DNA from: Sabellastarte sp. h YS-2021
Taxonomy: Eukaryota > Annelida > Polychaeta > Sabellida > Sabellidae
Reading direction: 5' to 3'
NCBI GenBank assembly: GCA_964017235.1
Contig: OZ024940.1
Location: 23,565,615 to 23,629,614 of the forward strand
DNA length: 64,000 nt
The notes under the pieces were generated by a model that saw only the letters and a list, made by a program, of their open reading frames with translations, searched no databases and was not told the origin of the DNA. This document shows positions 4,092 to 46,700 of this stretch, piece after piece. Made by a program: the position numbers and the translations under genes. Each line of letters starts with the position of its first letter. Positions within the stretch are counted from its first letter, which is position 1.

Positions 4092-5657
4092 ATGGATACA
4101 AAGTTATTACCAAGTGGAATTGATTATAAACGCTCAGTGACATATTTTGTTGGAACAGCAGCTCTTATAATTGGGATAAACATCCTTATAAAACTGGTAA
4201 AAACCGTCTTCAACTACCGCTATCAGTTATCATTCCTCAAAGCTTTTCCTGGGCCGAAGAGTAAGAGTCTGTTTGGCAGTTTTTTCCAAAGATCACCCAT
4301 TGGAAAGATCTTCCTGAATCGCCTGAGCTTGGCCAAGAAATACGGACCAGTCTATCAACTCCACGTCAGTTTCTGCAGCACTCAATTAGTTGCAAGCAGC
4401 CCAGAGTATATCAAGCGAATTCTGAGCAATGCTGACCCCAAAGAGACCATTGGATATAAATTCCTCAAAGCCTGGCTTGGGGATGGATTACTGGTTAGCA
4501 AGGGGAAGAAATGGTCACGGAACAGGCGACTCTTGACACCTGCATTCCATTTCGATATCTTGAAACCATACCAGAAAATCTTCAGTGCATCCGCACAGGT
4601 GATGGTGAAGAAATGGAAGAGGCATTACGAATCTCATCCAAATGATTCGATCGAAATGTTTGAAAGTGTCAGTCTTATGACCTTAGATAGCTTAATGAAA
4701 TGTATCTTTGGCATCGAAGGAAACTTCCAGGAAGAAATGAAGCAACATCCTTACATCCAGGCTGTGTATCAGCTGACAACACTGATCGATAAACGGTTCA
4801 GCAACTTCCTTCATTACAGTAATTTCATCTATTACTTTTCCAATGATGGCAGAAAGTTTCAGAGAGCTGCTAGAGTGACCCAGGGTTTCTCCAGAAGTCT
4901 TATACAAACCCGGCGACAGATAAATCCAACATCAGCTACAGCAACTGCTGCAGCCAATGGATCATCCACAAAGAGGCATGTAGACTTTCTCGACATGCTT
5001 CTTCAATGCAAAGATGAAACAGGGCAAGGGATGTCCGACCAGGAGATACAAGATGAGGTTGAAACATTCTTATTTGAGGGCCACGACACAACAGCGAGTG
5101 GAATATCATGGACTCTGTACAACCTAGCCCTTCATCCAAGGCATCAAGAACGCTGTCGCGAGGAGATCAATTTGATCATTGGGGACAACGATTCCATAGA
5201 ATGGGATGACTTGGGAAAACTCTCCCACATCAACATGTGCATCAAAGAAAGCCTACGACTCTACACAACTGTGACAGCTGTTGGGAGGCGACTCTCCAAA
5301 CCTGTGACCTTCCCCTGTGGCCGGTCAATTCCTGGAGGCACCTGGGTAGTGGCCGATATCCATTCCTGTCACCATGATGCTGACATATGGCCCGACCCTG
5401 AGATATTTGATCCCGAGAGGTTTTTACCAGACAATGCAAAGACTCACCACTCCCATGCATTTCTGCCTTTTTCAGCAGGACCGAGAAATTGCATCGGGCA
5501 GCATTTTGCCATGAATGAAATGAAGACGGTGATAGCCTTGATACTGAAGAATTTTCACCTGGAGGCAGACTCCTCTAAGCCCACGGATCCTTGTCAGTCT
5601 GTCATACTCAGAGCTGAAGATGGGATATGGCTGAAGTTGACTCCAATTCAGGGATAA
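4092..5657 (+). CDS. CYP4 family cytochrome P450, single exon
   Basis: A haem monooxygenase of 521 residues, the usual CYP4 length, probably omega-hydroxylating fatty-acid-like substrates on the ER membrane. Residues about 15-36 form a hydrophobic N-terminal anchor. The I-helix motif FEGHDTTASG includes Glu329, which in CYP4 enzymes is the residue that can be covalently esterified to haem. The K-helix ExxR is E386-R389, followed by the FDPERF block, and the haem loop FSAGPRNCIG carries the ligand Cys467. The frame is also open back to an ATG at 3966 (563 residues). I prefer 4092 because its context GCCATGG is a good Kozak match, the 42 extra residues are not P450-like, and the anchor then sits at the N-terminus. 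No intron is present, whereas vertebrate CYP4F genes have many. AATAAA follows at 5792. The subfamily (4F/4V-like) is not settled. Confidence 0.95.
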   Translation: MDTKLLPSGIDYKRSVTYFVGTAALIIGINILIKLVKTVFNYRYQLSFLKAFPGPKSKSLFGSFFQRSPIGKIFLNRLSLAKKYGPVYQLHVSFCSTQLVASSPEYIKRILSNADPKETIGYKFLKAWLGDGLLVSKGKKWSRNRRLLTPAFHFDILKPYQKIFSASAQVMVKKWKRHYESHPNDSIEMFESVSLMTLDSLMKCIFGIEGNFQEEMKQHPYIQAVYQLTTLIDKRFSNFLHYSNFIYYFSNDGRKFQRAARVTQGFSRSLIQTRRQINPTSATATAAANGSSTKRHVDFLDMLLQCKDETGQGMSDQEIQDEVETFLFEGHDTTASGISWTLYNLALHPRHQERCREEINLIIGDNDSIEWDDLGKLSHINMCIKESLRLYTTVTAVGRRLSKPVTFPCGRSIPGGTWVVADIHSCHHDADIWPDPEIFDPERFLPDNAKTHHSHAFLPFSAGPRNCIGQHFAMNEMKTVIALILKNFHLEADSSKPTDPCQSVILRAEDGIWLKLTPIQG

Positions 5658-12113: not shown

Positions 12114-15100
12114 GTTAGTAAAAAATTTTTATATGTCGTTTGGAAGAAATTTCCATTTGATTTATATTTCAGCGAGTTAAATCATCTTAACTGCTTTATA
12201 TGTACTTTTATATGCAAAGAAATTTGTACATAACTTTTATTTACATTTTCTTCAGAAGAAATTGTATTTGATTTATATTTCAGTCACATTGGTTGGAGCT
12301 GTTTACAGTGTGTAAATATTATGGCATAAATGGCTCTATACTTGGATTTTGGAAACCTACTAATTTCAACCTGATTTAGAAATTACTCTAGTATGTTGAA
12401 GATGAAAAGAGACATCAACAAACTCTGCCTTACCAGACCCTGTGATATCCGAAAGAACTGCTTTTAGTTTGGGCCAATGCTTGCAGGAACTATATTAGTT
12501 TGTGATGTTGGGACCTCACACAAATAGTTCCACTTTTATTGGCCGTATGGACAAAGCCGATCCAACACAATACAATATGTTATTCTCAGTTACCAGCCCT
12601 CTTTAATAAAATGATGGAAAGACTTTAAAAATGGGTAAAAAAGTTTTGTACAGGATCCCATTTTACCATTGACAGTGTGCATAGAAAATGCTTTTGCATT
12701 CAAACTTTATTATCAGTTCATATAGTTTCGAATCATTTTACTCAAAATTTAAAATTATGCCGATTGAGACATAATGTTGTTGGAAAACATCACAAATATG
12801 TAAAGAATTTCGAAGAAGTCGAGGACATAAAAGGAGATTTCCTTACTGGCAAATTGCACACATAACAACGCGGCAACTTTCATGTTTCTCACTCATCATA
12901 ATAACACCAGTAAGTAAGTAAGTAAGTAAGTAAGCAAGTTAAAATTAAAGTGCAAAAACACTTACGTGTTATGCTGCACTATTAAAAACTAATAAATACA
13001 TTAACTAATATTGACAGTAATATGCAAAAGTATATATACAAATAGCAACAATTAACAAATGGCCAAAAAGGACCAAGAAAAAACATTATACGAAATGACT
13101 AGAATAAAGACTAAATTAAACAATACACACAGTCAGTCTATTACCGATGCCCATTTTATATTATTATTTCCATTATATACCATTATGAAAAACATTAACT
13201 TACATGACCTTCAAGGTCACCAGATGGGCAAGGTCAAATATACTTTAAATTAACTTTTTGCCATTTTGGCCGTTTTATGTAATAATAATTTCAAAACTTA
13301 ACTGGAAGCAGTTTCAGTTCAACACTGTTAAAATAAGGATCAGTTTAATTTTAACATTTGACGGATCACTTCTAGTGTCTTCAATTTACACGTGTTAATA
13401 ATGAAGTAGATTCTTTCTTACACTTGAAATATAAGTTTCACTTTAAGAGGAAGGTTTTCGTCCCGGGAAAAAAATCTTATTACATTTCACTCGCGGAATG
13501 TTTATAGGTGTTATCTACAAGAATAAAGAAACCCAACTGGCTTGAGGTATTGGCTTTGTACACATCAGTGAGAACACAGAAAGCAATCCGCTGTTGTAAT
13601 GGAAGCCGGTGAAGTTCTTGTCTTGCTCTACTAATGTGGTCATACTTTCTCATTTTGAGGATGACTCGGGCTGCTGAATTTTGTACAATTTGTAGTCTGT
13701 GCAAAAAGACTTTATTTACTCCATAAAGCAGGCAGTTGGCATAGTCTAGTTTTGATGTTACCAGGCCTTGAATTATGCAGGAACATGTATCATTTGACAA
13801 ATATTTACGAATTCTAGCAATTTTATGAAGTTGTAATTGACAGGCTCTACACTTTTTGATGATAAACTCTTCCATGTTTATCCGTGAATCAAAATAGGCA
13901 CCTAGGTTGCGAACAGACCTTGTCGGGGTGATTGTACAGTCTCCCACCCTGATAGAAATAGAAGGCATTCCTTCCAAATATTTTTTGGTGAAATCCTCTG
14001 CAAACCCTAATATTTGCAGTAGTGGGACTACTTTGATATGTACAAAGTATATTAACTATGTGGCACTTGCTATACATATACTAGTATTGTAAAGAGGTTT
14101 ACTTTAGCATCACATTTGACTGAGGAATGAGTGATTTCGAAGGCCTCTGACTTCTTGACTTTGGGACTTTAAACACTCATTGAAATCTAATTTACTTTGT
14201 TTTTATTTTTGTCTAGAACACCCGTGCATGTAGTTCCTTCAATCTTTTTCTCTATATTTCTAGGAAGCTGCCTTATTGGTATAGCCGTCGACAACGAATT
14301 TACCGCGTATTTGAATGGTAAAACCATTGCCAGTAGCAACTCCTACTCTGTGCTGAACACCTATGAAGTGGATTCCGATGAAGTCACCAGTTCCGTCGCG
14401 CTCATTATCGATGCTCACAACACCAATGGCTTGTCGGGAATTCTGGTTGCAAGCAACGATGGAATATTCTCATCTAATAATGGGTGGTTCTGCGCAAACA
14501 AAGAGGTGTTTGATGGCTCAGACTCTTGGAAAGATAACGAAATGAGTGCCAGTGGAGCGCAGAATTGGTTCCAGGCCACAGTCGTAGCGTCTTTTACCTC
14601 AGGGATCTGGAACAAGAACGACTACAATAAAGTGCCGTCTATTCAGGTAAAACTTTTCTTTTTATTAATTTATTACCCCTGCCAGGAGGTTATGTTCTTG
14701 GGTCCATTTGTTTGTCTGTGTTTGCGAGAATTCTGAGAGTAAAGAATGGATCTTGCTTAGTTGTTTTTATGTGGGTAGGGCATGGCCAAAGGAAGAAGTG
14801 ATTACATTTTGGGAAAGATCACCAATTTTTGGAAAGGCACCCTGGCGGAGGTCTTGGCTCTACGAGTGCTTCCTAGTTTCTTGTTTTCTCTCTTTTTCTG
14901 TGTTTTCTTTTTGTGGATGGCCAATGCTGAATATGTATTTTATTTCTTGTTGTCGACTTATTTACTTGATAAGTTGAGATATGCCACTGTGGCCTAGCGG
15001 GTAACACACTTGTCTAGGAACTCAGAGGACGTGGGTTCAAACCCAGGTACAGGCAGATACATAGTGGCTCGGATGACCACTTAAAATGGCAGTCCTCTGT

Positions 15101-17455
15101 TATTGGGTCCCATCCCCAGCGGAAGGCTAAAGAACCTAAAGTACGTTGATAAATGGTCATCATCAGATCTTTTTCATTTGTTAATTCAATCACTCAAGTT
15201 AGATATCTTGAATAACTAGCTTTTCATATTAATTTGCGGACTTATTTACTATTATCAATCACAGTAAGGATCCGTGGTTTGAGTAAGTAACTCAATAATT
15301 TTGGATGTGGTTCCACCATTCTTCAGCAGGTTTATTTACCATTCTTTCATTTACCTTGGTGAATTAAATCGAAGCACGTGTGGACAGTGAAAGAAAAGAT
15401 AAAGATATTCTTTGGGCCTATAATTGGCCCATATGGCACAGGTTCTATATACTATATTTCTGGTTTCTGTGGGATGAAGCCACTCTGAACAGGACGTCAG
15501 GCTTTTCACTGGTTTATCTCTCCAACTCTTGTCAGTACTGAGCTGTTCTCCTGGGTGAAGACGAACACACGTGATTGTGTAAAGGACCTTGTTCAAGGGT
15601 GCACTCTCAATGACAGGGCAAAGGATCAAACCCTTATGTCTTACACCCTGAGGCTATCAAATTCCTGCACTACAAGGTCAAAGTTTGGGCTTTTTACGTC
15701 ACATTCAGCAGTTAGGGTCATATTGGAACAGGCTCTCAGGATTGCCACCTGTGGCAGCCGAATCCACACAGAGGTGACAGCCTGTGATTAAAAGCCAAAG
15801 TTTGTTAACCTCTAAGCCACCAAGGAGCTATTGGACCTCTCCTCCAAAGAACTGCAACTGCTAGGTGTTTATTGATTGAATATATCCAGTGTGAAATGAA
15901 ACAATTCACTTCTTCTTTTGTGCACAAGCTGATGTAATTTTAATTGTTGTACTAGGTAGAAAATGCCGACTGGATCTGGAACCAAAATCCGGGGGTGAAC
16001 GGCGGCACTGACGGTGACAGAGATGTCATTTGTAGGACAACCGTCAACCCTTCACAGTGTGACATCCCACAATCGGGAGTTAGTGAGTATATTTTCAACT
16101 GAGAAACACTACAAAACGTGTTGGGCAAAAGTTGGTGCTAGTTGATGAAATCACTGCATCACTGGCCTAAACAGTAAACTGGCATATTAGGTAAACTGCT
16201 AACTTGGGGACAAAGAGTTAAACTCTGTCAATGGTTATTGGTTTTTGACTAAATTGTTAACTGTCCTAACTATGGCATAGGTGAATTATTTTGTTTCTTT
16301 CACCTGATTATTTCACTTCATCAGCAGTTTAAACCAAAAGCAAATGAGATCAAAGAGCATTTACTATCCTTCATTTCCTCTGTAACACACAAAAAAAGTC
16401 AACTCTCCCATATATCTGGTGAGTACCTTAAAATTAAAACACTGGTTGGAGTAATCAGTGGAGATAGAATTATTCATAGAAACTATAATTCTTTGTCTCT
16501 TGTTTTTGTCTCAAATCTAGTTACTGATCCCCCTAATACTGTGACGGATGACTCTGTCATCACGATCGACGACCGTTCTAAGCTTCATCAGACAGACCTC
16601 TGCATGCTTGGAGTTCTATTTGACTTCAACTCCAAAACATACTGTCTCAGGTAAGTTCACATAGTTACGTTCAATAGGGTCTGTGTGCTTGAGTACAATG
16701 ATCTATTATGACAAACGAACCATCTAAGTAATGTAGTTTCACTTTCAATTCAGTGATTTTTAAAAATTTTAAATAATTCAATTTAGCAGAAGCACTCAAA
16801 ATACTTTCACAGACAGAAATTGCCTGTAGATTGGCATCAAAGCAAGACTTAGTAAAACTTGTGGGAATGACTTCATATCTTGTGGTAATGACTTGCTATC
16901 TTGTGGTAACGACTTGCTAACTTGTGGGAACAAGTTAGTATCTTGTGGTAACAACTTTACTAACTTGTGGGAACGACTTGGTATCTTGTGGGAACGCAAC
17001 TTGTTAACTTGTGGGAATGACGTAGTATCTTGTGGTAATGACTTTGCTAAATTGTACGAATGAGTTAGTACCTTGTGGTAATGACTTTGCTAACTTGTGG
17101 GAATGAGTTAGTATCTTGAGGTAACGACTTTTTAACTTGTGGGAACGACTTAGTATCTTGTGGTAACGACTTGCTATCTTGTGGGAACGACTTGCCAACT
17201 TGTGGGAACGACTTGCTATGGTAATGACTTTGCTAAATTGTGGGAATGAGTTAGTATCCTGTGGTAATGACTTTGCTAACTTGTGGGAACGAGTTAGTAT
17301 CTTGTGATAACGACTTTCTGACTTGTGGGAATGACTTAATATCTTGTGGTAATGACTTGTTAACTTGTGGGAACGACTAACTATCTTGTGGTAACGAGAT
17401 AAAAAATGACAGGAAAACAGCTATATGTCCCTTCCTGGGCTCTGTAGAAAATTAA

Positions 17456-17487
<32 letters not shown>

Positions 17488-20400
17488 CATTTGCTTTTTC
17501 ATTTTAAAACATTTTCCTCAAAGTTATTAAGAAAATTCTACTATTTACAGGTCTACAGTCTAGATCAAAATATACAAATTTTTCAAGCAAAAGCAAATTT
17601 ATTTTTTCTCTCCACAGACTGGGGACTAAAAAGATGAACTACGAAACTGCTCAAATGACTGCAGTGATTCATGGACAGCTAGTTTACATACCAAACCAAA
17701 TCTTCCAAGATAACGTGCAGACGCTACTTGATGCATACGGAATGCAGAATGAGAACATTTGGACGGCAGCACAGATGATCGATCCTTTATATGTACCTAA
17801 ATGGCAGTGGGTTGACCGTAAGTATAGATATTTTTCAGCGCAAGATCTTGCGAGGCTTGCACTTTTCGAGATAACTTTTTTGGGGGGGTCAATGGACTTC
17901 CATGAGAATTGACATAGCATTATGAGTACCCATCCCATCACTGATGTTAAGCAGCGATGGGCTAGGTTAGTAGTTGGATTGGTGACCGTCTGAGTTCTAG
18001 CCCATCTATGGGATGTATCTGACTCGGAGTTGATTTCTGCCACTAGACTTTTATCAATTCTAGTGCACTACTCGTGTATATGATGGCTTTGTAGCTTGGG
18101 CATGTAGACCAAAAGTCTTTTAAGCCTTGATTTTTTATTGAGCTATAATATCTAATAATATACCAACAGTAGAACAAACCTTTCTCTGTTGAAAATGTCT
18201 GTGCCATAGATAAACAGCATTTTATACTTTGGACGAACGTGTTTTTGAGATTTTCACACAAACTATTGGTTTCTTATTATACATTATACATGCATTTACC
18301 ATTATAAACATACAGTTGTGTATGGGGGATAAATCCTGAGCCAAATACTAAAAAAAACACACCACAATTTATCTCACAACATAAACACACATTATCTCCC
18401 CAATTTTAATTACTCTTGATTTAATCGTAACTTGATATATTCCCGTAAACCCGTTTAGTAGTTTAGTATTGATAAACTGGTTATGATGTTTAATGTCTCT
18501 CTTACACTGAATTATTGAAGGTCAAACCTAGGGGCTTTATATTCCTTTTTAACAGCCGAATAACCAGAAAGACATTAATCAGTCCATCCCCCTTTGTCCT
18601 TCTGATCTTGATTCCAAATTGCATACGATTATGTAAAATCTAATTTTCCTGGTGAGTCAGGTTAATAATATACCTTATTAGCCATCATGTGTCATATACA
18701 GGCAAGACGGAGGGATATACCAAGTGGAATATATATTATTTTTTGCTCACAATGCCGCCTTTTGCTCACCTTACCACGGATAATTAGTATCAACAAGTGC
18801 CAGTGTTTAGTTAATATTTCAGAAACTATGTAACCTACAGATATATATACTTAAATCAATAGAAAGGTAGTTTACAGCCATTCGGCTTGTTTATTATTGT
18901 TGCATAAAAATCCATGCAGAAATAGCTGAGAAATGCAAGTTAAAGATTTAGGTTTTATGTTGACTGGTGCCCTGTATTTCTGTTCTATGTTGACTGGTGC
19001 CCTGTATTTCTATCCGCAATTTTCACATTCTCTCTTTAAATATGGATTCATTTAACTTATCTATCATACGAAATGGATAAGAAATGTAAAGCATCCCTCA
19101 TTAGATATATACAGAAAAAAATATATCACTCATGAAGACTAACAATACCTGAGTTACGCTCTTATTTAATATTGTCATCTTCGTCTATGATATACTTTTT
19201 CTGCAACCTATGTGTCATTCGGGAAGTTTTCCTATGGCATGGCTTACAGAGGTAACAGAACTGGAACACAAATGGGTCACTGCTACATAACTGTAGCCCA
19301 CTGCATAAGACACTCAACTTTAACGTTAAACTTTTCTCAATATGAGTTAAATTTACTTTTATTTTCAGTTAGTTTGATTATTTTTTTCCCACTGCATTTG
19401 GTATCTATGTCAATAAGACAACGTACATGAATAATGAATTACATGTGTATCGACTACACAGTATTTCCATTAATTTGGCAAACAAAATAAAAATGTATGT
19501 AAAAGAGAAATACAAAACGCAAACAAGCAATACAGGGCACTAGACGATTCCATTAACGCTCACAATGAGACCAATTGATAACCTGGGGAAACACTTAATG
19601 AATATTATTTGTATGAAAACAGCACATTTACAGGTACAATAAATTCATAAATATTTTTTTTAAAAGTCTCAGAATGTTTTGTTTTGAATGTTCCTACATA
19701 TGTAAAGGTCACACAGAGCTTCTGTTTTGTGTTTCAGGTTAGCTGAAAGTAAAGTTTCTTAATTTTTTACTCTTCCTTTTGAAGGGTTGCTACAACACCC
19801 TTTTCAAACACAACAGCGGCAGATGTCAAGTTACAACTGAAATATTCATGACACAAAGGGGTCTTGTGAATTCTGAAACACCACAGCTTGAATAAAAACA
19901 GAAAAAAACTAACAAAAATTTACGCAACTAAATTTCATTGGAAGAGTGGATCTACTTTCATCGAATATGACTCAGTCTCTGCCATTCAATTATGTTATTA
20001 ATGAGATCATGCTATAGAGTAAGAAATCTAAAATTCGCCAGGAATCTAAAATTCGCCACCTCTAAAACCTTAGTTAATTTTATGAAGAAAATTATGATTT
20101 TGTTTAAAAATTGGTATTTTTCAGTTCAAAAAGCCTTAATGTACTATACAGTAAACAAATCTCACCACAATTCATTTATTTTATTAGTATTTTCACATGT
20201 GGCGAATTTCAGATATGTGGTGAATTTTAGATTTCTTACCCTATATTCTTCAGCTATTCCCAACCTTAATGTGCAGATATTTTTTCTGCCTTAAAATGCG
20301 AAACCTAGTTTAAAATTTACAAGCTAACTTCTTTCCTTACCTTAAGTTAGAGTCTTTCATCTGATACAGATTAAGTGTTATAAAAGTCCACATTAGATTA

Positions 20401-23400
20401 GATGCTAACCAGATATCCTCTAGGGATAGAAGTAACTAGTGAGGCTATGGACAAAATATTTTATAATTACAAGAATATTATCTAGAATTTCAGGGGTTAA
20501 ATTTATGAAAGGTCTTAAGTCTCAAATTTGAGTGTGTTTTTTTTCCTGTCAATTAATATGCAATTAAAAACCACATCTGGTCATGCTTGTTTTTTTTTCC
20601 ACAAAATTTTGGCTTTTCTATTGTGGAGGGGGACTCCTCAGAAATGAGGATTGGCTCACTTCAAACTAATCTGAATATTCTATTCAAGCTGATGAAAAAA
20701 AATTTTTTTTTTCCCGACAAAATCAAGTATGACCCAAAACTTGTGTGCCGAAACAAAATTGTGGTAATAAAAATATCCCCCCCCCCAAAAAAAAACCAAA
20801 AAAAAAACCAACAAACAAAAAACATATATTTTGCTCGGTCTGTATCGGATTCCATACACTTCATCCACAATTACTTGATGAAGCAGTCCAAAATTCAAGT
20901 TCCTTCACAAATATACAAACCTGAATCGGTGGTTAAATGTGCTGCTGGTGCTAGATAGCCTTGCCTAAGGCTCTAATTTGTATTGGATCTTTTTCAAACA
21001 TGCACACAGATATAAAGTATTTATAAAGCACTCATACATGTTATGAGTTAGAAGCTTATCAGACAGTCTTTCTCTTTGCTGTATGCTACTGTAAGAGTCA
21101 GTACATGTGTGAGTACATTTTTGAAACTGAAACTCCATTATCTGAACTGAAAACTTTCCCTTACTATAAAGAAACTTGAGCCTTCAGCAAGGCTAGGTGC
21201 TAGATAAAAATAAATAAACTTTAAGACAACATACATGCAAAATGTGCACTGAAACTGGATGCATTCATATGTCAGAAGAACTATAAAAATTCCCCTCCTA
21301 GAAGTGGATTGGTGGACTTACAATTTTTTTAATAGTGTTATTAATTCCACATTTGACAGTACATTTCATATGTATCATGTTTTTTAAGATAAAAGTGACA
21401 ATAAGAAAATAAAAAGAAAATTAATAAGAAAAAAAATATACAGTACTCAGAGATTTTAAGCACACATTATTGTAAAAACCATATTTCATATACTAAGTTA
21501 TAGGCATGACAGAATACCTGCACTTACAATTATTTTTGCAAAAGTTTACAAAAAAACCCAGAGATCTTTGCTAATTTAATATAAAAGTAACCAAGCAAGT
21601 AGGCATAAAATTCCCGGAAGGTATTCTCATAATTCAAGCTCAATGTTTTTTTTATTTTGGTGTTTCAGCTGTTGGTGTCACCGGGTTGGACCCTGCAGCC
21701 GTCAACCTCAACCTGGCCCATCAGGGCTGCTTTCAGTACAGCACCTATCAGAACGAGTTCACCAGAGTGACACAAAACATCGTTGGAATTGTCACCACTG
21801 CCACCTGTATACAAGAGTGTGCAAACTCCGAGACTACGTATAAATATGCAGCACTGATGGTATGTCAGCTAATGGCCTTTTTTTTTATGTTTCTTCCCCC
21901 ATCCGTGATGTTAAGTGATAATCATATGGTTTGATTTATGGGTTTTTTTTTACACACTGTCCACTGTGGCCTAGTCGGTAACACACTCACTTGGGAACAC
22001 AGAGGACGTTAGTATCAAACCCAGGTACATGCAGATACATAGTGGCACAGATGACCACTTAAAATGGCAGTCCTCAGTCACTGGGTCCTATCCCCAGTGG
22101 CAGGCTAAAGAACCTCATGGGTGTTGATAAATGGTCATCCTTCAGCCTCTGTCTTTCAGTTTGGGGAATGTCAGTAACTTGAGAGTTGGGCTGTACTTGT
22201 GCAGTCAGATGGGTCATGTAGCGCCTTGAGTCCTGTAGCACATGGAGATATTGCGCTGAGTATAAATACACAATACAAAAATACAAATACACATACTAAA
22301 TTTATAAATTGCATTAAGTGGTTCTATTGTCACTAATAAGATCCTTGGGGCTGGGAACTATAACGCTATCGTAACAGGACTTGTGTAAACACTTGATGTA
22401 AACACAATGATGTTCTAGTGATCAAAATAAAATTTTGTCTACATGCGTATATGAACAATATGCACATGTGAATATAAAAAGCGTGATTATGTCATTCAAA
22501 GGTTCCAATTAGTTTCTACAGTCTATCTAGTTATTTTTTGCCTCTGATTTTTTTTTCATCTTCCACAGTTTGACTCTGAATGCCACTGTGGTAACGAGTT
22601 TTTTGGTACAGTTGGCAACACGATAGGCTGCACAAGTCCCTGTAGCAAGGCACAAGACGAATACTGCGGAGGCGAGAACAAGCTGGCGATTTATGACGTT
22701 ACGGGACAGTGGTCAGACTGGGACAGAAACCAGCCGAATAATTATGAGGACTATCAGGACTGTGTAGTGTTCGATTCAGAAGGCGATAGAGGGCAGCTGA
22801 AGGATGAAGGTTGCGGCTCAAAGTACAGATACATCTGCGAAATCCCCAGTAAGTGAAGATTATGCTTTTGTTTGTTGTTTAAGCACGAGCTCTAGCAAGG
22901 CTTGGTTTCAACCAGCCACCCCTGAGGTGGGAGGTGAGTGTCTTAACATCTTCACCACAAAGCCCCAAATATACGGAAGCATTTATTATAAGTAACTAAT
23001 TAGTACCATAACACACGGTATGGTCATTCTTCAAGCTTAAGGGCCAGTGGGAACGGTGCTTATTTCTAGTTTCCATGGTAACATCCACACTCCTGAACTG
23101 GATGCCCATCTGACACTGGCTTAGCTCCTCAGCTGCTTTTGGTACCCGCTTAAACCAGTGCACGAAGACGGACCTGTGTATGTTATGTACCCTGTTCAGT
23201 GTTGCAACCTCCATGACCCGTCTGAGTATTGAACCTGAGACCTTGAACTCTGAAGCCTTGAAGTCCAACACTTTAAGAATCTAATCTTACATGGACTTTT
23301 ATCGTGTTTAGTACCCGTCATTTGATAGATGCTAAAGTGCAACTATACATAAACAGAATGAACCGTTGTAGGGTGCCTTGCTGTAACCAGGTCACAATTG

Positions 23401-26400
23401 AAAAGACACAGCAGTGGTGGGGCGGCTATGACGGATAGGCTTTTGCAAACAGGCAAGTTTTGAACTGGGTCATAAACAGCGCCTGTGCTTGTTTAACTCC
23501 CTTTTTGTGCCATTTTCTTTCAGATGTGGACAGCTTCTGCCCTAGCTACACAGAATATAATGAGCACACTTACGAAGATGCCAGACTACGATGTTTCTAT
23601 GCCAGTACCACCGCCTATTCTTGGTATTTTGCCAGGCAACAGTGCAAGTAAGTGGTCTTTTGAAAAAAAGTTCAACTCGGGTGCCAGTTTCACAAAAGGA
23701 CTTACTTAGACTACAAGTTAAGCCTTTTTTCTTAAACTCAGTCCAAGTTTTTGTTTTTAGACTAAGAGGGTTTCACAAAACCCCTAATTCTAAGTTTTGG
23801 CTGACCTGGAGTGGGCTTAACTTTTGTGAACAAAGACTTAGAAATGGCCGCCATAAACTTTTCTAACTTCAAAATGTGAAATGTCCCCAAAAAGATAATA
23901 TATAGGACACCTCACTAACAATTAGTCTATAGACATGTTTATGTGGTTACATTAGGCTTTCCAATGAAAAACAGCATTTTACCAAAAAAAAAAAAAAAGA
24001 GTTCAAACAAAGGAAATATGTCACCAATAAAATATTGTGACTAGCAATATATGGTCACAAAGAAAGTTAAAACCATTGTGGTTATTGGATAAGCTTGGTT
24101 TTGTCTATGTTATCCTTTCTTTTAAGTCCCTAGGCTTAGCTGAGATAAAAGGCTCAGATTTACTAGTCCCTGACTCAGCCTACGTTCAGGCTATGTCCAA
24201 GGTCAAAACTAGTTCTTAGTGTACCCAAGAAGTTACCACAAGCTGAATGTTAATCAAAATTGATAGTCAAGTAATTAAATGAAAAAGTTGTTAATTATTT
24301 GATCACTTACACTACTAACATTCTTTACAATCAGAAGACTAAATTTAACAAGTTTCATGTTTTTACTATTGTTATTTGATCTTGATCTGATCTTAATCCA
24401 TGTTAGTGAATACCACCCGTAGAATAGACTGGATTTTGATACTATCATCTGAACCCCCTAGCATCTAAAATTGGGGTTTTTTAATGTCACTTCAACTGTA
24501 GAATCTTGTTATTGAATGTTACATCCAAAATTACCTCATCTGTGTTACTTTCTCACCACACAGATCTCTGTGAGGAACCTTTCTCTTGGAACATGTTCAG
24601 AAAATAGAGGTTCCATATTATAAACCTACCCTGCAACCTTACCCAGGCATGACCTTTGACCCTCTTGCTGCAGGAGGTAAGTGCTTTACTACAACACCAA
24701 ACAATGCTCAGACGCCTTATGTTTACACTTACAGAGCTTTAGGAGGCAACCTGCTGGTCATCCTGAGTGACGCCTTGAATCAAAATATTCTGGCATGGCT
24801 GGACGGGATACAACCCAAGTCTTACTACTGGGTAGGGGCCTACAGACCCATCTTCTCGTGGAAAATAGGTGAGATTCAAAGACTGATTGGTATGGGTTTA
24901 ACATCGCTTTCCACATGTTGTACGTGTAGATCAGGTATCGGGTATCCATGCGATTGATATCCAAACTAACAGACTCTAGGGCACACAGGTCAACCAAAGT
25001 GTCATGAAATGAGATAAGGGTCGTAACCAAGGAGACTGCTGGTGATCGGTAGTCGAGAACTAGGGAGGGAAAGACTTCTGAAACAGACAGGTTTTACCTC
25101 ACCTTTTGAAACATGAAAGAGTGGGAGCAGTTTGAATTTACATTGGCAAATCATTCCAAACTTTTGGGGCATCTTTCTTTATGAGAACTTGTAGCTGAAG
25201 GGATGGATAAAAGCAGCACATACAAGTTTGTCAAGATTTCCCACCGACAGTCTAAGGCTCGATTATCCGTACCGCTTGGGAGACGTAAGTTACATACAGA
25301 CAACCACAAGGATCAGTTAGCCAGGGGTGCAGTTGTCGTGCATAGAAAATGTATAAGAATTAAACCTTGTCTTTGATTCATTTTTATAAATGTCCATTGT
25401 GAATATAACTTATACAAGTCACAGTTTTAAATTCAATCTCAAAAGACTTATCATCAGAATGTTTTTTTCTGTTTCCATAGAAGGGAGCAGCAATTCACCG
25501 ATCAGCGAATACGACAACTTTGCCGACGGCCAGCCGCCCTCAGTGCTCAACTGGAATTGCATTTATATTTCTGGGGAGGAAGGATACAAGTGGAAGAGTG
25601 GAGGCTGTGACGCCATCTATCATTATGTCACTATTGAAGGTGAATATATTTTTTGTCTATAATATGACTGGTTGAACTTTTTACCTAGATACAAGATTAA
25701 TTAAAGTTTTCGTAAGTAACTTAATTTTTAAGTGCATGAACATGTTTGTGTAATACTGCACCATTCAATGGATTTGTAAATATGTTATCTCAAATCTAAG
25801 ACTTTGGTCTCTGCTGAGTTTTGCTTAAGTTAAGAGTAACCAAAAAAAGACCTGATTTTAGTGGCCAACTAAAGTCTTGTTAGACATTCATAAAACCACT
25901 GAGACAAACTGATGTCACCCAAAAGTGTACAGTAATTTCGCCAGAATGTAGTGTCATTCAGTTTCATTTATAAAAAACCAGCAGATATATAGTGGGTCCA
26001 CTTATGAATACTTTTTTACTTGACTGTATCATTTAATTTTAACAGTCTTAAACAGTCATAGAGATTGGTTCTTGAATTAATTATTGAAAAGTTTTTTTTT
26101 ATAATTGACAGCACATCAAAACGTATAAAAATTAACAAAAATATTTTAGTATTTCAGGTTTCCTTGGATCAAAATGTTCGCCCTTGCACTTGCTAAATCC
26201 CTTTACTAATTTATCAAAAAATCTTTCATTTCTTTTACAAGCATGGGCCACAGAAACAACCACAAACCAGCCAGTGATCACAACCACTCAAAAAGTACCC
26301 CCTAGTACCCCCAAAGAACCTCCTAGTACACCGACAGTTACTCCTTCATTGCCGGACAGTTCGAGTACTGCAACTGGTACCCCTACGACACAAAAACCCG

Positions 26401-29400
26401 ATTTGAGCACGATAATAAGTACTCAAGAGATCAATGCAGATCTATCGAGTACTTCGAGTACTTCTAGTGTCTTGGTTACCAGTGAAAGTACCAGTAAAAT
26501 AGGAGATAGAGCCACAACTCAAAGCATTGGTAATTCGACGTTTTCACGTTATGTGTATGCATTGTTTTATGTCAAAGTGTTGCATGGTAAATGTTTAATG
26601 ATGTTTGTACTACACTCCAGAGGTTTTTCAAGACTTTGTTGTCTCTCAAATCTCAAAGAATGCAAAAACCACAACTCTTGTTTTGACACAGCTAAACTAT
26701 TGTTGTTTATTTTTCAAATGTACCCATTTGTATACAGAGCCCACTAGGGGACATGGTAAACAAGTATTGATTGCAGGAATACATCATACACATAAAAATA
26801 AACTGTGCACATGATCTATACGTTGAGAGCCCAGTCTTTATTTTGGTACTCACAGAATAAAATCCATTCTGTGTTCACAGTCTCTATATTGCATCATTGG
26901 AATTTTGGCTACACAAAATTTCATATATTTTCAAATTAAAAAAAAATTCCTTGGAAATTCCTTGGAATAAATTTCACCAATGACTTGTTTCTTCCAGTGA
27001 AATAAATACACGCCTTAAATTAATCTTTACTCAATGAATTTTCATTAATTTAGGTCCATTAGCAAGAATAACTAAATCAAACTTATTTAATAAAATACAT
27101 TATTGGTACTTTTGGAAAACTGTGAAATTTTTTTCTTATTTTTGAACTTCATAGAAAATTCTTAGTTTCTGAAAAAAATTCTGAGAGAAATAGAGTATTC
27201 TAAAAATTAGAGTCTTCGTGAAAATAGACCAAGATGACAGATTACACTAAGTATATACAGGGTATCTGTAATTTTAGATTAAAGGGGCCACGGTGGCAGA
27301 GTGGTAACACTCTCGCCTCCCACTTGACCTTGACCAACTGTATGTATTGGTTTCCTCTGCCCACAAAACTACCCGTCATGATATGACCTACAGAATGTGT
27401 TGAAAGCGACATTAAATCCCAAATAAATAATTTAATGATTAAAACTGTGCACTTCTAAGTTAACCATTAACATCTCAGTCAGTTGTCTGAGGGGCTCCAT
27501 ACATGTTTTCATGTCACCAAGAAATACATATGCTTAGTGACAAAGGTATATCCTGGGGTGGTATTCACTAACATTCCTAATCTTTGTCCTATCTCAAAAA
27601 TAATTATCAATCATCACTTTCTAACAATATTCTAAATCAATAATCAACTTCAGTTAGTAATTTCAAAGTATATTAATTCTACATGAAGATTTAAGAGCTA
27701 AAATTGTGCTTACTGTAATGGAAATAAAATCAGACTAAAACAAAGATAGGAATGTTAGTGAATACCGCCCCTGGTTCCCATTTATCTAATGTCGGGCACT
27801 TAATTTCAGTCTTCTTGTGTTTTAACCAGTGCACTGAGATGTTATATGTTATGTTTAGTATAAAATGCTTCAAACAGTCAACTCTGCCCTTTTACAAACT
27901 GGCTGTCCCTCACAAACAAAACTCCACCTCTGCATGATATAAACTTATTCCCTTTATGTCACAAATTCGGCCAATTTTGTTACTATCAGTAGCTTTGTGT
28001 ACTGAGACATACCCTAGTTCCCTTGGCTTCCCACAAAGAAGTTTTAAATTGTTCAAAATTTTTATGTACATTTTGAAGCATTTCAATGGTGGTTTCCATG
28101 ATTCTCAGATGCCTATGAATAACAGTTTAGATAAATCATTTTGATTTGTGCTCTCGAAAAACAGAACATAGCATATATTGCATTTGTTATTAGACACTTT
28201 TAAAATTCCTTTACAAAAAGAGAAAACAGAATCAAAGAAAATGTGGAGTAAGAAATAAAACACAAATCCTTTCCATATACATTCAACTAAATACATTTTA
28301 AATAACAGAAGGAGGGACAAGTGTGAGGCATAAGCTTGCCCAGTTTAAGATATAAGGCTGGGGTTGAGTTTGTCAAACCCTCAACCCTCAACATGTGTGA
28401 TTCAAACATACCAAGTTTGTAAAGGGGCGGAGATGTCCAGATTCTGAACACAACAAATACATATATTCAATGGTTATGTATGGTTCATCTTATTAACTCC
28501 TTCACAGCCATATTAAGGTATCACCCAACAGCTGCAGCAATTACCAACTGAAGATTTTCTGATTCCCCCCCCCCCCCCCCTGCACCCAATACCATAAATG
28601 TCATATCACAATAACTTAACACAAGATAGTCACTTACCCATATTTGGATATGTGATAGGAGGAATCCCATCACTGCTGATATAACTTTAGGAGATCGAAA
28701 AGGATATCAAACCCAAAACTATGACCTTTAATCTTAGATTTACAATTATATTACAATAAATAGGTTTAATTTACTGAAGCACAAGAATCTTTTAAAATTG
28801 TGATGAATCATTTTTGTATTTCAATTTATGCATTTTTCAGAAGTGTCCACTGGTATTTAAAATACACAACATTATTTTCAAATTTTTCGACTTTGATTTG
28901 GATTGAAACTTTTATCTGCTTCTGTTTCATTTCTACTTTATTGTTTAAACATGTACTTTTCACCTTGGTCTTTGCGTAAACTTTATTTTTCATTCGTACT
29001 GCCACTACTTGTCTTGAAATGGCTAATTATTTACAATTTCCTATCAAATGGGAAAATGTTTCTATGATATTTCTAACTGAGTAATTAAAACTATACCTTC
29101 AGGTCTTCGATTGTGCATATTTTTATTTTTAACCCATGAACAATTATTGCCAATTAACAATAAAATTGTCCCCTAGAAGCTCTGGAATACATTAAAAAAC
29201 TTAAAGGCTGCAGGTTATTAAATTAAATTAATATTCTCAGGGCTACAAATAAAACAGGATGAAGACCAAAACAAAGGTTTTAGTACAACAATCTGTGTTT
29301 GGCAATTTGGAAGAATTGAATGACCAGATCCTTAATCGTCATTGTAATGTGGATAATGTAATACTTGGTTTGGTTTGGTTTCAGTTTCGCCTTTGATGCT

Positions 29401-43743: not shown

Positions 43744-46700
43744 GTGGGTATGTTTAGCTGTTTTGGAATACTTACTTTCAAAGTAAAATACAAAGACTTC
43801 ACATAGGGTTTTTTGTGGGAGTCAAATGATATATTGTAAATATTTTGACCAAATTTCACTCAGAATGTAATGGTTTTTAAAATAAATATATTAGTCTCAT
43901 ATTACTTGTATGTCAATAGTTTTTTAAAAATCAAATTTACAACATTAAGTTTATCAGAGAAGTGATACATATTTTCAAGATATCAGTTTGAAAAGTAACA
44001 ATGTTTAAAGTTGCACCAAAACATTTTTTATTTGTACCAAAAGCATGAAGGAAGTAAAGTTTTATAAGTGTAACTATACACAAGATGCAAATATCTGTCA
44101 TATTACCGTAATTCAATTGACTTTGATCCATAAAAGCTATTATTGATCAAACAGTCCAGTACAACTCAATTTAACAGAATTCACCTTTTGAATTGAAGAA
44201 AAATACCTTAAACTCATTTATAAGCCCTATACTGAGAGAAAATATTGAAGTCTGCATAAACTTGAATGAGTTTTTAAAATGTTTACACAGATGGCTGAGG
44301 GAGCACTATAGCACTGTAAAAATCATGAAATTTTGGGAGATAAAAAACGAGCCTCAGATAGAGCCCGTGCTTAAAAAATAAAGGCTGTAATAAATATTGG
44401 GGCACCTGTGTTTACGCAAAGCTTTCGACTTTGAACTAAAGGCTCTTCAGCCATTAATGCTTAGATTTGTATGCAAAGTTCAATGCAAGTTTTTAAAAGA
44501 GAAAAATACCTTTCCAAGGGCGTCTATAATATATTTGTAGCTTACATAATTGAAGAAATATTTCTGAAATATCGGCATTTGATGAATATGTAATGCTTAT
44601 GGTGCATAGTAAGTGGTTGCAGGAAAAATACAAATTCTTACTCCTTGGTTTGTATCATAGTCTTTATTTAGGCAAGATACAGTGAGAGGTGAAAAATACA
44701 AGTTGTACTATGCTAGTCTAGTCTCTTAAGCTACCACTCAAGAGGGTTCATAACTGTAAGCACAGCAACTGTAATCGCATTAAATCTTTTTCTTTTTCAG
44801 GTGACTGCCAAGTGGGTTTTATCGTCGACAACTCCTACGTACTCTACATAGATGGAACTGAACGACTAACGGGTAACGATCACTCAAAAAAGACTGAAAC
44901 AGTTTTGGCGACATCAACAGATGTCATTGCCATTGCTGCCCACAATAACCAAGGCGCCTCAGGGTTCTTGGTTACGAGTAGCGGAGATATTTATTCCAGT
45001 AATAACACCGGTACACCCGTCACTTGGAGATGCATTGTCCGCAATGAGGCTGCGCCCTATTTGGTAAACGACGCCTGGACGCAGCCAGGCTTTGATGACA
45101 GTGCCTGGCCGAAATGCTACCAGATTGGAGGACAAACCACGAATCCATGGGTGGATGATATCGACTCCTACCAGCCACTTAATCCACTTGCAGTGTGAGT
45201 TGGAGATACTGTAATTTCAGTAATAATTACACACCTCTTTAATTGACACCCCTCTAACATTTTTAATACCAATTTTTAGTGAGCAAAGATCAGAAATTTA
45301 AGCCAACATTACTCAATAATTACAAGCCCTTCCTGGCCAAATCATCTTTATATATTAGTTTTACTTGATTAGAAGTATTTAACAAAGGCAAAGTTGGCCA
45401 GTGGCCAGGGCCATCTTGGGACAGGTCCTCAGTATTGCCACCTGTTGGAGTCAAACCCATGCAGAGGTGACAGCCTGTGATTAGATGCCAGACCAGCTAA
45501 CCCACTGGGCCACTGTGGACCTCATCGGGAGTATTTAGTAATATACAAAAGTACAGTACTTAGGTATGAGAAAGGGTTTATTTTGTTTTCCATTTCCAAA
45601 AGTACCATTTTTTTCTGCCAAACTAGAAAGTTTTCTACATCATTTAGGTTTTACACATCACTGCAAAAAAACCCAAAAACATGAAAAATAGACCCACTTT
45701 CTGCTAACTTTTGTACAATATTTGCTAGAATATTGAATGTTCTGGATAACTAAAGATCTGATAATAGAGGCTCTACCTTATTAACAGGTGGATGTGGACA
45801 GACAACCCAGGGTACAATTCAGTGAATGACTTCGGCAAACCGTACTCAGATGGCGACATTGACATCCTAGTCAGAGGAACATTCACTTTGATAGCAGGCT
45901 GCCAAATTACACCAGGTAGAGTGAGAAATTGACCATAGAATGTGAAATCCACCACTCTATATACAAATCACCACTCTGTGATATTCATCATCATGAAATT
46001 TGCTATACCATGTGAAATTTGTCAGAGTATATGAAATTCATCACAAATGTGAAATTTGCCACGGTAGGGGAAATTCATCAGAAATGTTAAACTTGCCATG
46101 GTATGGGAAATTTGTCAGAGTATGTGAAATTTGCCATGGTACGTGAAATTTGTCACAGTATGGGAAATTCATCATAAATGTGAAATTTGTCACAGTATGG
46201 GAAATTCATCACAAATGTGAAATTTGTCAGAGTATTTGAAATTCATCACAAATGTGAAATATGCCACAGTATGTGAAATTCATTATAAATGTGAAATTTG
46301 CCATAGTATGGGAAATTTGCCATAATAAGTATGTGAAATTTGTAACCAGGGGCATCCCTTTAAAATTAAGAAAAATAGTCCAAATTCTCTCATTTCTGCA
46401 TCAAGGGAGATGTAGGTCAGCAATCATAGTTATGTCAAGAATTTCCGATCCCAGATATTTCATTAATGAAACATTCATGGTAAAAACGAGAAACCAATGG
46501 TCTTAAAAGTCTTATTATATAATCAGCCATTTTAAAAATATTCTGAAAACAGGACACTTGGAGACTGTTTACTTTCGTCAAGGGAAGTATGATTTTTTTT
46601 TCAAACCAATAACTATCGACTATTTAGTCCTGAATATCTGATTCTATGAAAAATAAAAGGAATATGTATTTAAATAAAACCCAACTGTTAGATCTTAAGC

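Follow-up and report, generated by a model that had tools for sequence, protein, structure and literature searches.

Animal extracellular proteins are usually seen as beads on a string, with phase 1-1 modules shuffled between domains, and the WSC domain is normally such a module placed end to end with its neighbours. In the C-type lectin domain (CTLD), the C1-C4 disulfide ties helix 1 to the last strand and normally links the two halves of the domain, the cysteines C2 and C3 belong to the upper lobe, and Ca2+ site 2 of the sugar-binding C-type lectins is made up of an EPN or QPD motif plus a WND motif. That the long loop of a CTLD can be rearranged on a large scale is known from snake venom, where pairs of CTLDs exchange their long loops; this is an exchange between two chains, unlike the domain insertion described here.

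CTLD and WSC domains have been reported in one protein for the polycystin-1/sea urchin REJ family (PMC1934368) and for bivalve CTLD proteins (PMC10140915). In the text passages compared, these reports list the two as separate domains, with nesting unmentioned. The gene of the sea raven antifreeze protein has a CTLD intron downstream of the WIGL motif (PMC514892), i.e. at about the same place as the WSC insertion presented below and thus at a site of the type into which the WSC module would have moved; the passages concerned mention no inserted domain. A description of a WSC domain nested in a CTLD was not found in the literature searched, among the matches listed. The arrangement is apparently undescribed, as the initial annotation of this DNA had supposed, although the co-occurrence of CTLD and WSC has already been published.

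A WSC domain inside the long loop of a CTLD

The window, i.e. the whole stretch of 64,000 nucleotides analysed, contains a gene on the + strand whose exons, listed here, are bounded by AG/GT:

Exon 2, 14264..14646, + strand: N-terminal domain together with exon 3, beta-rich by eye; open frame, AG/GT ends
Exon 3, 15956..16082, + strand: end of the N-terminal domain; open frame, AG/GT ends
Exon 4, 16521..16650, + strand: start of CTLD1 with cysteines C0 and C0'; ends in phase 2
Exon 5, 17618..17817, + strand: first half of CTLD1, from IWTAAQ (WIGL position) to WQWVD; ends in phase 1
Exon 6, 21669..21859, + strand: first half of the inserted WSC (PF01822); phase 1 to 0
Exon 7, first part, 22569..22703, + strand: second half of the WSC, to IYDVT; PF01822 to the profile end (82/82)
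Exon 7, second part, 22704..22848, + strand: second half of CTLD1, GQWSDWDRNQPNN...YICEIP, with C2, C3 and C4; PF00059
Exon 8, 23524..23647, + strand: start of CTLD2 with C0, C0' and C1
Exon 9, 24735..24868, + strand: first half of CTLD2, to FSWKI; no WSC; ends in phase 1 at the corresponding place in the long loop
Exon 10, 25481..25639, + strand: second half of CTLD2 with C2 and C3, Thr replacing C4
Probable exon 11, 26242..26529, + strand: Thr/Ser/Pro-rich mucin-like stalk, by eye; AG/GT ends

Exon 7 as a whole spans 22569-22848 (280 nt, phase 0 to 1), and the boundary between WSC and CTLD within it was set by homology with paralogs that carry an intron there. For exons 4-7, which the initial annotation had already placed at these positions, AG/GT ends and compatible phases were found. 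As predicted from these exons, the gene encodes a multidomain protein with a CTLD whose long loop region is interrupted by a complete WSC domain, and it is a member of a family that comprises at least eight such loci in this genome.

The WSC domain encoded by exons 6 and 7 covers positions 2-82 of the 82 of the PF01822 profile (Pfam; E 5e-9, 36.7 to 40 bits). Its translation contains the eight cysteines noted in the initial annotation, and profile and cysteines together assign it to the WSC domains. With those of yeast Wsc1 (7pz2, E 7.5e-4) and Kremen1 (5fws, E 0.017-0.03) it has in common the eight cysteines, the C-x-CGN and CGG motifs and the full profile length; unlike the usual end-to-end WSC, it is inserted in the loop of another domain.

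For the CTLD, the curated cut-off of the Lectin_C profile (PF00059) is 22.6 bits. In the intact chain, Lectin_C was detected only on the C-terminal half, with 20.9 bits and hence below this value. After excision of the WSC, the joined halves of CTLD1 scored 37.5 bits over profile positions 16-106 of 107, so that CTLD1 passes the cut-off only once the WSC is removed. Taken singly, the first half gave no match in the Pfam scan; the second half, into which exon 7 passes from the WSC without a break, reached 26.1 bits. The first half ends at WQWVD, and in the joined domain WQWVDG and QWSDWDRNQPNN stand in a single alignment to Mincle (3wh2, 4kzv; phmmer); the best solved matches of CTLD1 include Mincle, a snake galactose lectin and the mannose receptor. 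CTLD1 resembles other members of PF00059 in the tryptophan at the WIGL position, the W-x-W-x-D and xPNN motifs, C2-C3, C4 and the C0-C0' pair of the long form, as well as in its long-loop intron and in a sequence match half by half. It differs from the usual CTLD by the domain in its long loop, the loss of C1 and the erosion of WND and EPN.

The long loop is occupied by a stretch of 109 residues that carries the whole WSC. The initial annotation had put the insertion between the W-x-W-x-D strand and the long loop; it does follow W-x-W-x-D, but according to the usual nomenclature (PMC7618208) it lies within the long loop region, before the xPN loop. When the excision was shifted by 8 or 15 residues, the Lectin_C score fell from 36.8 to 28.6-35.5 bits for the window gene and from 63.5 to 41.6-61.1 bits for paralog F. 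With so few bits lost in the window gene, the score locates the insertion point poorly.

The paralog family and the insertion site

The order CTLD half-WSC-CTLD half was found at eight further loci (A, B, C, D, F, G, H, I), seven of which are complete; at locus B, the first half of the CTLD was not recognised within about 7.5 kb upstream. The size of the family is a lower bound, as the Lectin_C search of the genome scored 150 of 305 candidates. Counterparts of exon 5 are present in seven other loci of the genome, and in all eight loci with both halves known the joined CTLD exceeded the Lectin_C cut-off (in addition to the window gene: A, 44.1; C, 45.2; D, 29.0; F, 63.5; G, 55.5; H, 36.1; I, 53.5 bits). 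For seven loci (window, A, C, D, F, G, H), the profile was also run with the WSC retained. This gave two Lectin_C stretches for C, F, G and H, the better one preceding the WSC (and in C, G and H extending a few residues into it), two for A, the better one following the WSC, and a single one for the window gene. Locus D, which carries two WSCs, scored 17.6 bits with one of them retained, i.e. below the cut-off, and no stretch passed alone. The existence of a gene family and the position of the WSC exons at the unfused loci, exactly between two CTLD half-exons, support the initial reading of the locus as a nested one.

In C, D, F, G, H and I, the first half of the CTLD ends in phase 1, the WSC is a 1-1 unit and the second half starts in phase 1; locus B agrees with this pattern for the parts present. 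At the unfused loci, two exons make up the WSC as a phase 1-1 module; it is located in the phase-1 long-loop intron of the CTLD, and a continuous CTLD results when the exons on either side of it are joined (WKWISD-G-SYTRWGYEQPNN, WRWPD-G-TYTHWAKGLPNN, WHWVS-G-SFSTWAYQQPDD). A phase-1 intron occurs at the same place in plain CTLDs as well, namely in L063, L064, L066 and CTLD2 of the window gene; no WSC match is listed for any of these four, and L063 and L064 scored 63.2 and 60.1 bits when joined. Symmetrical phases (C, D, F, G, H, I) and empty-site counterparts are the features by which an exon-shuffled module is recognised. Note that the two-exon form of the WSC is not universal, since 4 of the 25 readable WSC loci of the genome (L026-L029) are intronless there by eye. 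Within 1.5 kb of 30 WSC loci (L026-L055), CTLD halves gave two matches (E 0.028 and 0.029), which are not credible; the loci scanned include WSC parts of G, H and D, for which the CTLD halves lie beyond 1.5 kb, so that this result carries little weight as to nesting of the other WSCs. One scan of paralog G against viral contigs gave no match.

The window gene and paralog A lack the 3' intron between the WSC and the second half of the CTLD, and the resulting fused exon is exactly 280 nt long in both. Therefore, the WSC cannot be skipped alone in these two genes. Their only sign of kinship is a common phase 2 intron at a matching place in the first half of the CTLD; a tree of eight of the nine loci contained no starred branch and grouped the two in 18% of the bootstraps. 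Over the WSC and the second half of the CTLD, the paralogs (eight compared) are 26-47% identical, and all nine second halves have kept W, P, C2, C3, D and C4.

Proposed origin and binding role

We consider it probable that the WSC came to be nested in the long loop by exon shuffling, that the gene was then duplicated, and that the CTLD is a scaffold displaying the WSC. Judged from the exon anatomy, a two-exon WSC module between phase-1 introns would have been shuffled into the phase-1 long-loop intron of a CTLD. Gene duplication would have followed the insertion, and the loss of the 3' intron in the window gene and paralog A would have locked the WSC into the CTLD. In the protein, the two CTLD halves would fold together as a scaffold, with the WSC shown on the top (ligand) face. 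The WSC is an antiparallel b1-b5-b3-b4-b2 sheet (PMC5014086, PMC9024836), and from this order we infer that its chain ends are close together; the adjacency of its first and last strands in the sheet may be what allows it to sit in the loop. The WSC alone, or the interface between WSC and CTLD, would most likely touch an extracellular glycan or protein ligand, and the second CTLD and the mucin-like stalk would hold this binding head outward. A point against the proposal is that, in the window gene, one of the two partners of the C1-C4 tie between the CTLD halves is lacking.

The expectation that the WSC places a second putative carbohydrate-binding fold beside the usual ligand site was borne out in part, as the usual site of CTLD1 may not work: C1 is replaced by alanine, with C4 present, and the Ca2+ site is eroded (WND to LKD, EPN to QPN). 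Because of QPN and LKD, CTLD1 is not classed as a canonical C-type lectin, and because C1 is missing it is classed as CTLD-like by profile and not as a canonical member. C2-C3 is present in CTLD1 and in all nine second halves; CTLD1 of paralog A also lacks C1 and keeps C4, and both cysteines occur in CTLD1 at six of the eight loci whose first half is known. Since the CTLD of the window gene is without C1 and its Ca2+ ligands are eroded, the WSC would be the likelier binder. That it binds a ligand is suggested by analogy with its family, and the surface of the yeast Wsc1 structure is reported to have no apparent glycan pocket (PMC9024836).

By the same shuffling that usually adds beads to the string, a module appears here to have been placed inside a domain, in its ligand loop. 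In one genome, the empty site and the stage with separate exons occur along with a doubly inserted form (locus D) and the fused form as end state; together they offer a natural test of the loading capacity of the CTLD long loop. In the annotation of invertebrate proteins with CTLD and WSC, a nested arrangement may be listed as separate domains.

Alternative readings of the locus

In the unfused paralogs, the WSC might be an optional cassette whose skipping toggles the lectin head between a plain form and one with the WSC, a splicing switch in sister genes that the window gene and paralog A would have lost. Skipping of the WSC exon pair keeps the frame (e.g. WKWISD joined to GSYTRWGYEQPNN), and the joined forms score as good CTLDs. 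However, exon shuffling alone yields compatible phases with no need for regulated skipping, and we regard such a switch as unlikely.

The cysteines allow another pairing. In the window gene, CTLD1 keeps C4 without C1 and CTLD2 keeps C1 without C4; in paralog A, CTLD1 likewise has C4 only, and CTLD2 has C1 and no cysteine at C2-C4. In these two genes, C4 of CTLD1 might thus pair with C1 of CTLD2, either in an inter-domain disulfide or by packing of the second half of CTLD1 on the first half of CTLD2. A swapped pairing of halves scored 47.4 bits, compared to 31.6 for the native joined CTLD2 and 37.5 for the native CTLD1, but the opposite swapped pairing gave no Lectin_C match. Lectin_C scores are roughly additive over the halves, and therefore the score of the chimera proves no pairing. 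Moreover, CTLD1 of paralog A has one extra cysteine, the exon for the second half of its CTLD2 was picked by eye, and the six of eight loci with C1 and C4 within CTLD1 favour ordinary pairing in the family. On this last ground, an exchange of halves is disfavoured as a general rule, and for the two genes we consider either form of the C4-C1 pairing quite improbable.

A special form of this exchange seems more doubtful again. In the window gene and in A, a circularly permuted CTLD having every canonical cysteine would arise from two pieces adjacent in the chain, namely the second half of CTLD1 and the first one of CTLD2. The two remaining halves (first of CTLD1, second of CTLD2) would make up an outer CTLD without C1 and C4. 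The outer CTLD would then hold the WSC and a whole permuted CTLD in one long loop, and each canonical cysteine pair of the window gene would be either wholly kept or wholly lost.

The CTLD halves could also be decayed linkers, with the WSC as the sole folded and working part. The missing C1, the eroded Ca2+ site and the lack of a Pfam match for the first half alone would fit; yet the nine second halves retain W, P, D and three cysteines despite high divergence, and joining the halves gives strong CTLDs for F, G and I (63.5, 55.5 and 53.5 bits), which makes this reading highly unlikely.

Intron 5 is 3.85 kb long and was scanned with Pfam as 46 + strand open reading frames of at least 28 codons plus one control piece. 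Lectin_C matched 1 of these 47 pieces, with the control's own E of 8.2e-6, and none of the 46 reading frames; a hidden exon with a CTLD second half between 17817 and 21668, considered in the initial annotation, is ruled out for + strand reading frames of this length. Although the intron is long and the gene is known from DNA alone, this result, the same domain order in seven other complete loci and the single exon common to WSC and CTLD second half in two genes leave hardly any room for an artefact of the gene model, in which an unseen exon completes CTLD1 and the WSC and the second half stem from a different transcript.

In the remainder of the window, a second copy of the WSC-in-CTLD arrangement was not found, and for paralog F, tblastn gave one match at 4196-4405 (E 0.003), which contains a stop and was judged to be due to chance. 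With respect to the N-terminal domain, exon 2 aligns over residues 5-63 to the solved 'Lectin' chains 6t0q and 6t1d (E 8.4e-7 and 1e-6; phmmer), and its Pfam scan gave no match. The gene that begins near 44800 has exons of the N-terminal domain only, and an exon at 45786-45914 resembles exon 3 by eye.

The WSC domain within CTLD1

The genome comprises 1.786 Gb and contains spliced genes; judging by domains and introns, it is probably that of an animal. In the window gene, which encodes two C-type lectin-like domains (CTLD1 and CTLD2), each of the following exons is preceded by AG, followed by GT and compatible in phase:

16521-16650, + strand, exon 4
17618-17817, + strand, exon 5
21669-21859, + strand, exon 6
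22569-22848, + strand, exon 7

The protein joined from exons 4-7 leads from the first CTLD half, which ends at WQWVD, through the WSC domain to GQWSDWDRNQPNN...YICEIP. Splice ends, phases and the joined reading agree on the order CTLD - WSC - CTLD proposed in the initial annotation. A Pfam scan of the joined protein is in line with this order: a complete WSC domain was detected in the intact chain (36.7 bits, profile positions 2-82 of 82), where Lectin_C matched only the tail, i.e. the CTLD part after the WSC, with 20.9 bits (cut-off 22.6). Without the WSC, the Lectin_C score rose to 37.5 bits and the match spanned both halves. The tail by itself gave 26.1 bits, and for the head by itself Pfam gave no match. 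In a phmmer comparison performed with the WSC removed, WQWVDG and QWSDWDRNQPNN were joined in a single alignment stretch with Mincle. The last exon read at the 3' side of the gene is rich in Thr, Ser and Pro.

The initial annotation had named an unseen exon completing CTLD1 among the findings that would speak against the nesting. Intron 5, which separates exons 5 and 6, was scanned as 46 + strand ORFs of at least 28 codons plus one control piece; the sole Lectin_C match among these 47 pieces carried the E-value of the control piece alone (8.2e-6), so that no such exon was found among the ORFs of this strand and length. As a further control, the WSC excision was displaced by 8 or 15 residues and Lectin_C was rescored, which gave 28.6-35.5 bits versus 36.8 in place for the window and 41.6-61.1 versus 63.5 for its paralog F, a contrast less sharp than hoped for in both cases. 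The profile scores of these two loci support the view that head and tail are halves of one domain; as off-place excisions keep much of the score, it is the exon boundaries, and not the Lectin_C score alone, that fix the exact insertion point.

A family of at least eight loci

Used as a query against its own genome, exon 7 matched itself and, over its full length, C21:25275001 (contig OZ024940.1; 41% identity, E 1.2e-12), as well as several sites with WSC and CTLD tails in adjacent exons. Reading of the DNA revealed the succession WSC exon 1, WSC exon 2 and CTLD second half in eight further loci (A, B, C, D, F, G, H, I). Seven of them possess an upstream CTLD first half; for locus B, none was recognised within the approximately 7.5 kb of sequence inspected on the upstream side of the WSC. 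With the window counted, eight of nine loci are complete, and, at the level of genomic sequence, the arrangement is that of a gene family and not a single oddity. All eight complete loci exceed the Lectin_C cut-off when the WSC is left out.

Lectin_C scores of joined CTLDs without WSC
Window: 37.5 bits
A: 44.1 bits (first half begins part-way, exon-4 equivalent not located)
C: 45.2 bits
D: 29.0 bits
F: 63.5 bits
G: 55.5 bits
H: 36.1 bits
I: 53.5 bits

Seven loci (window, A, C, D, F, G, H) were also scored with the WSC retained. C, F, G and H each gave two Lectin_C stretches, the stronger one before the WSC; A gave two with the stronger one after it, the window gave one, and D, for which a single one of the two WSCs was kept, remained below the threshold at 17.6 bits. 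Locus D (L016, L012, L058; C21:8302671-8316000, minus strand) carries two tandem WSCs (63.9 and 54.7 bits) in a single CTLD, no CTLD half being seen between them; its splice sites were worked out for the second WSC. Locus B (L065-L057-L020, C21:23188500-23198261) consists of WSC and CTLD second half; some 1.5 kb before this WSC there is an odd exon resembling a CTLD (MWHWMYINGVRYL...FLVICK).

Intron phases and origin

Five loci (C, D, F, G, H) share one phase pattern: the first half of the CTLD ends in phase 1, the WSC exons run from phase 1 to 0 and from 0 to 1, and the second half starts in phase 1; the same phases were found at the five junctions read in locus I and at those present in B. 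Direct joining of the exons flanking the WSC of G yields WKWISD-G-SYTRWGYEQPNN. In CTLD2 of the window gene, the matching codon is interrupted by a phase-1 intron (between exons 9 and 10), and there is no WSC. The plain CTLDs L063, L064 and L066 (the latter with a weak donor, ggtttg) have a phase-1 intron at the matching place, with no WSC among the matches listed. In fish, CTLDs with an intron 3' of the WIGL motif have been described (PMC514892). Among 27 other WSC loci, 25 had a readable match; judged by eye, 21 of these show splice-like sites at the internal WSC position and four (L026-L029) continue without an intron. Their flanking phases, read in a few, are 1. Given the phase-1 flanks, the plain CTLDs and the other WSC loci, the arrangement most likely arose when a pre-formed WSC module with 1-1 phases was inserted into the phase-1 loop intron of a CTLD.

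In the window gene and A, WSC exon 2 and the CTLD second half are fused into one 280-nt exon. Between the junction glycine and the tryptophan that follows it, the distance is that of most relatives, so the intron between WSC and second half would have been lost cleanly. The loss may have occurred once or separately: the family tree does not resolve the branching, although both genes have a common intron in the CTLD first half.

Fold, cysteines and known architectures

In the CTLD fold, strands 2, 3 and 4 lie with the long loop region in the upper lobe; strand 2 carries WIGL, strand 4 WND, and the loop EPN (PMC7618208); the WSC would consequently enter at the ligand face. The antiparallel WSC sheet has the order b1-b5-b3-b4-b2 (PMC5014086, PMC9024836), which should make both ends neighbours and the domain fit for loop insertion. 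Of the proposed location beside the usual CTLD ligand site, the entry at this face is retained, but the CTLD's own Ca2+ site is worn in window CTLD1, with QPN at the EPN place and LKD at the WND place. W, P, C2, C3, D and C4 do not change across the nine CTLD second halves; the other Ca2+ ligands do. In our reading, the CTLD probably acts as a scaffold presenting the WSC.

The cysteines C1 and C4, which normally tie both CTLD halves, are both found within CTLD1 in six of eight loci. Window CTLD1 keeps C4 and lacks C1, and CTLD2 keeps C1 and lacks C4. In paralog A, CTLD1 again keeps C4 without C1; its CTLD2 keeps C1, with C2 to C4 apparently absent by eye. This complementary loss extends over 16521-25639 in the window (paralog A: L003, L056, L068). 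The two cysteines left without a partner, C4 of CTLD1 and C1 of CTLD2, may bond with each other, or CTLD1 and CTLD2 may exchange halves. The exchanged combination gave the best Lectin_C score (47.4 bits), but these scores are additive by halves and no proof of pairing; the opposite combination was without a Lectin_C match, and an extra cysteine in A disturbs the tidy tally.

The initial annotation knew of no description of a WSC nested in a CTLD, and the excerpts of the literature matches listed contain no such report. CTLD and WSC occur in one protein in bivalve-specific architectures (PMC10140915) and in polycystin-1 (PMC1934368). Domain insertion is common, affecting 20% of multidomain proteins (PMC13114784; a word search of the text found neither 'lectin' nor 'WSC').

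Several other features were noted in the window. The N-terminal domain of the window gene (exons 2-3, 14264-16082) has no Pfam match and is similar to the solved 'Lectin' chains 6t0q/6t1d; another gene, which begins near 44800, has this domain as well (44800-45914), with no CTLD or WSC seen in that gene within the window. By eye, intron 4 contains a minisatellite-like array (16830-17410) with units resembling acttgtgggaacgacttagtatcttgtggtaacg, and a SINE-like element (ccactgtggcctag..ggtaacacac) is present twice in introns of the gene (14985-15150 and 21960-22130). A reading frame with FEGHDTTASG... at 5004-5402 is, judging from this motif, presumably cytochrome P450-like.
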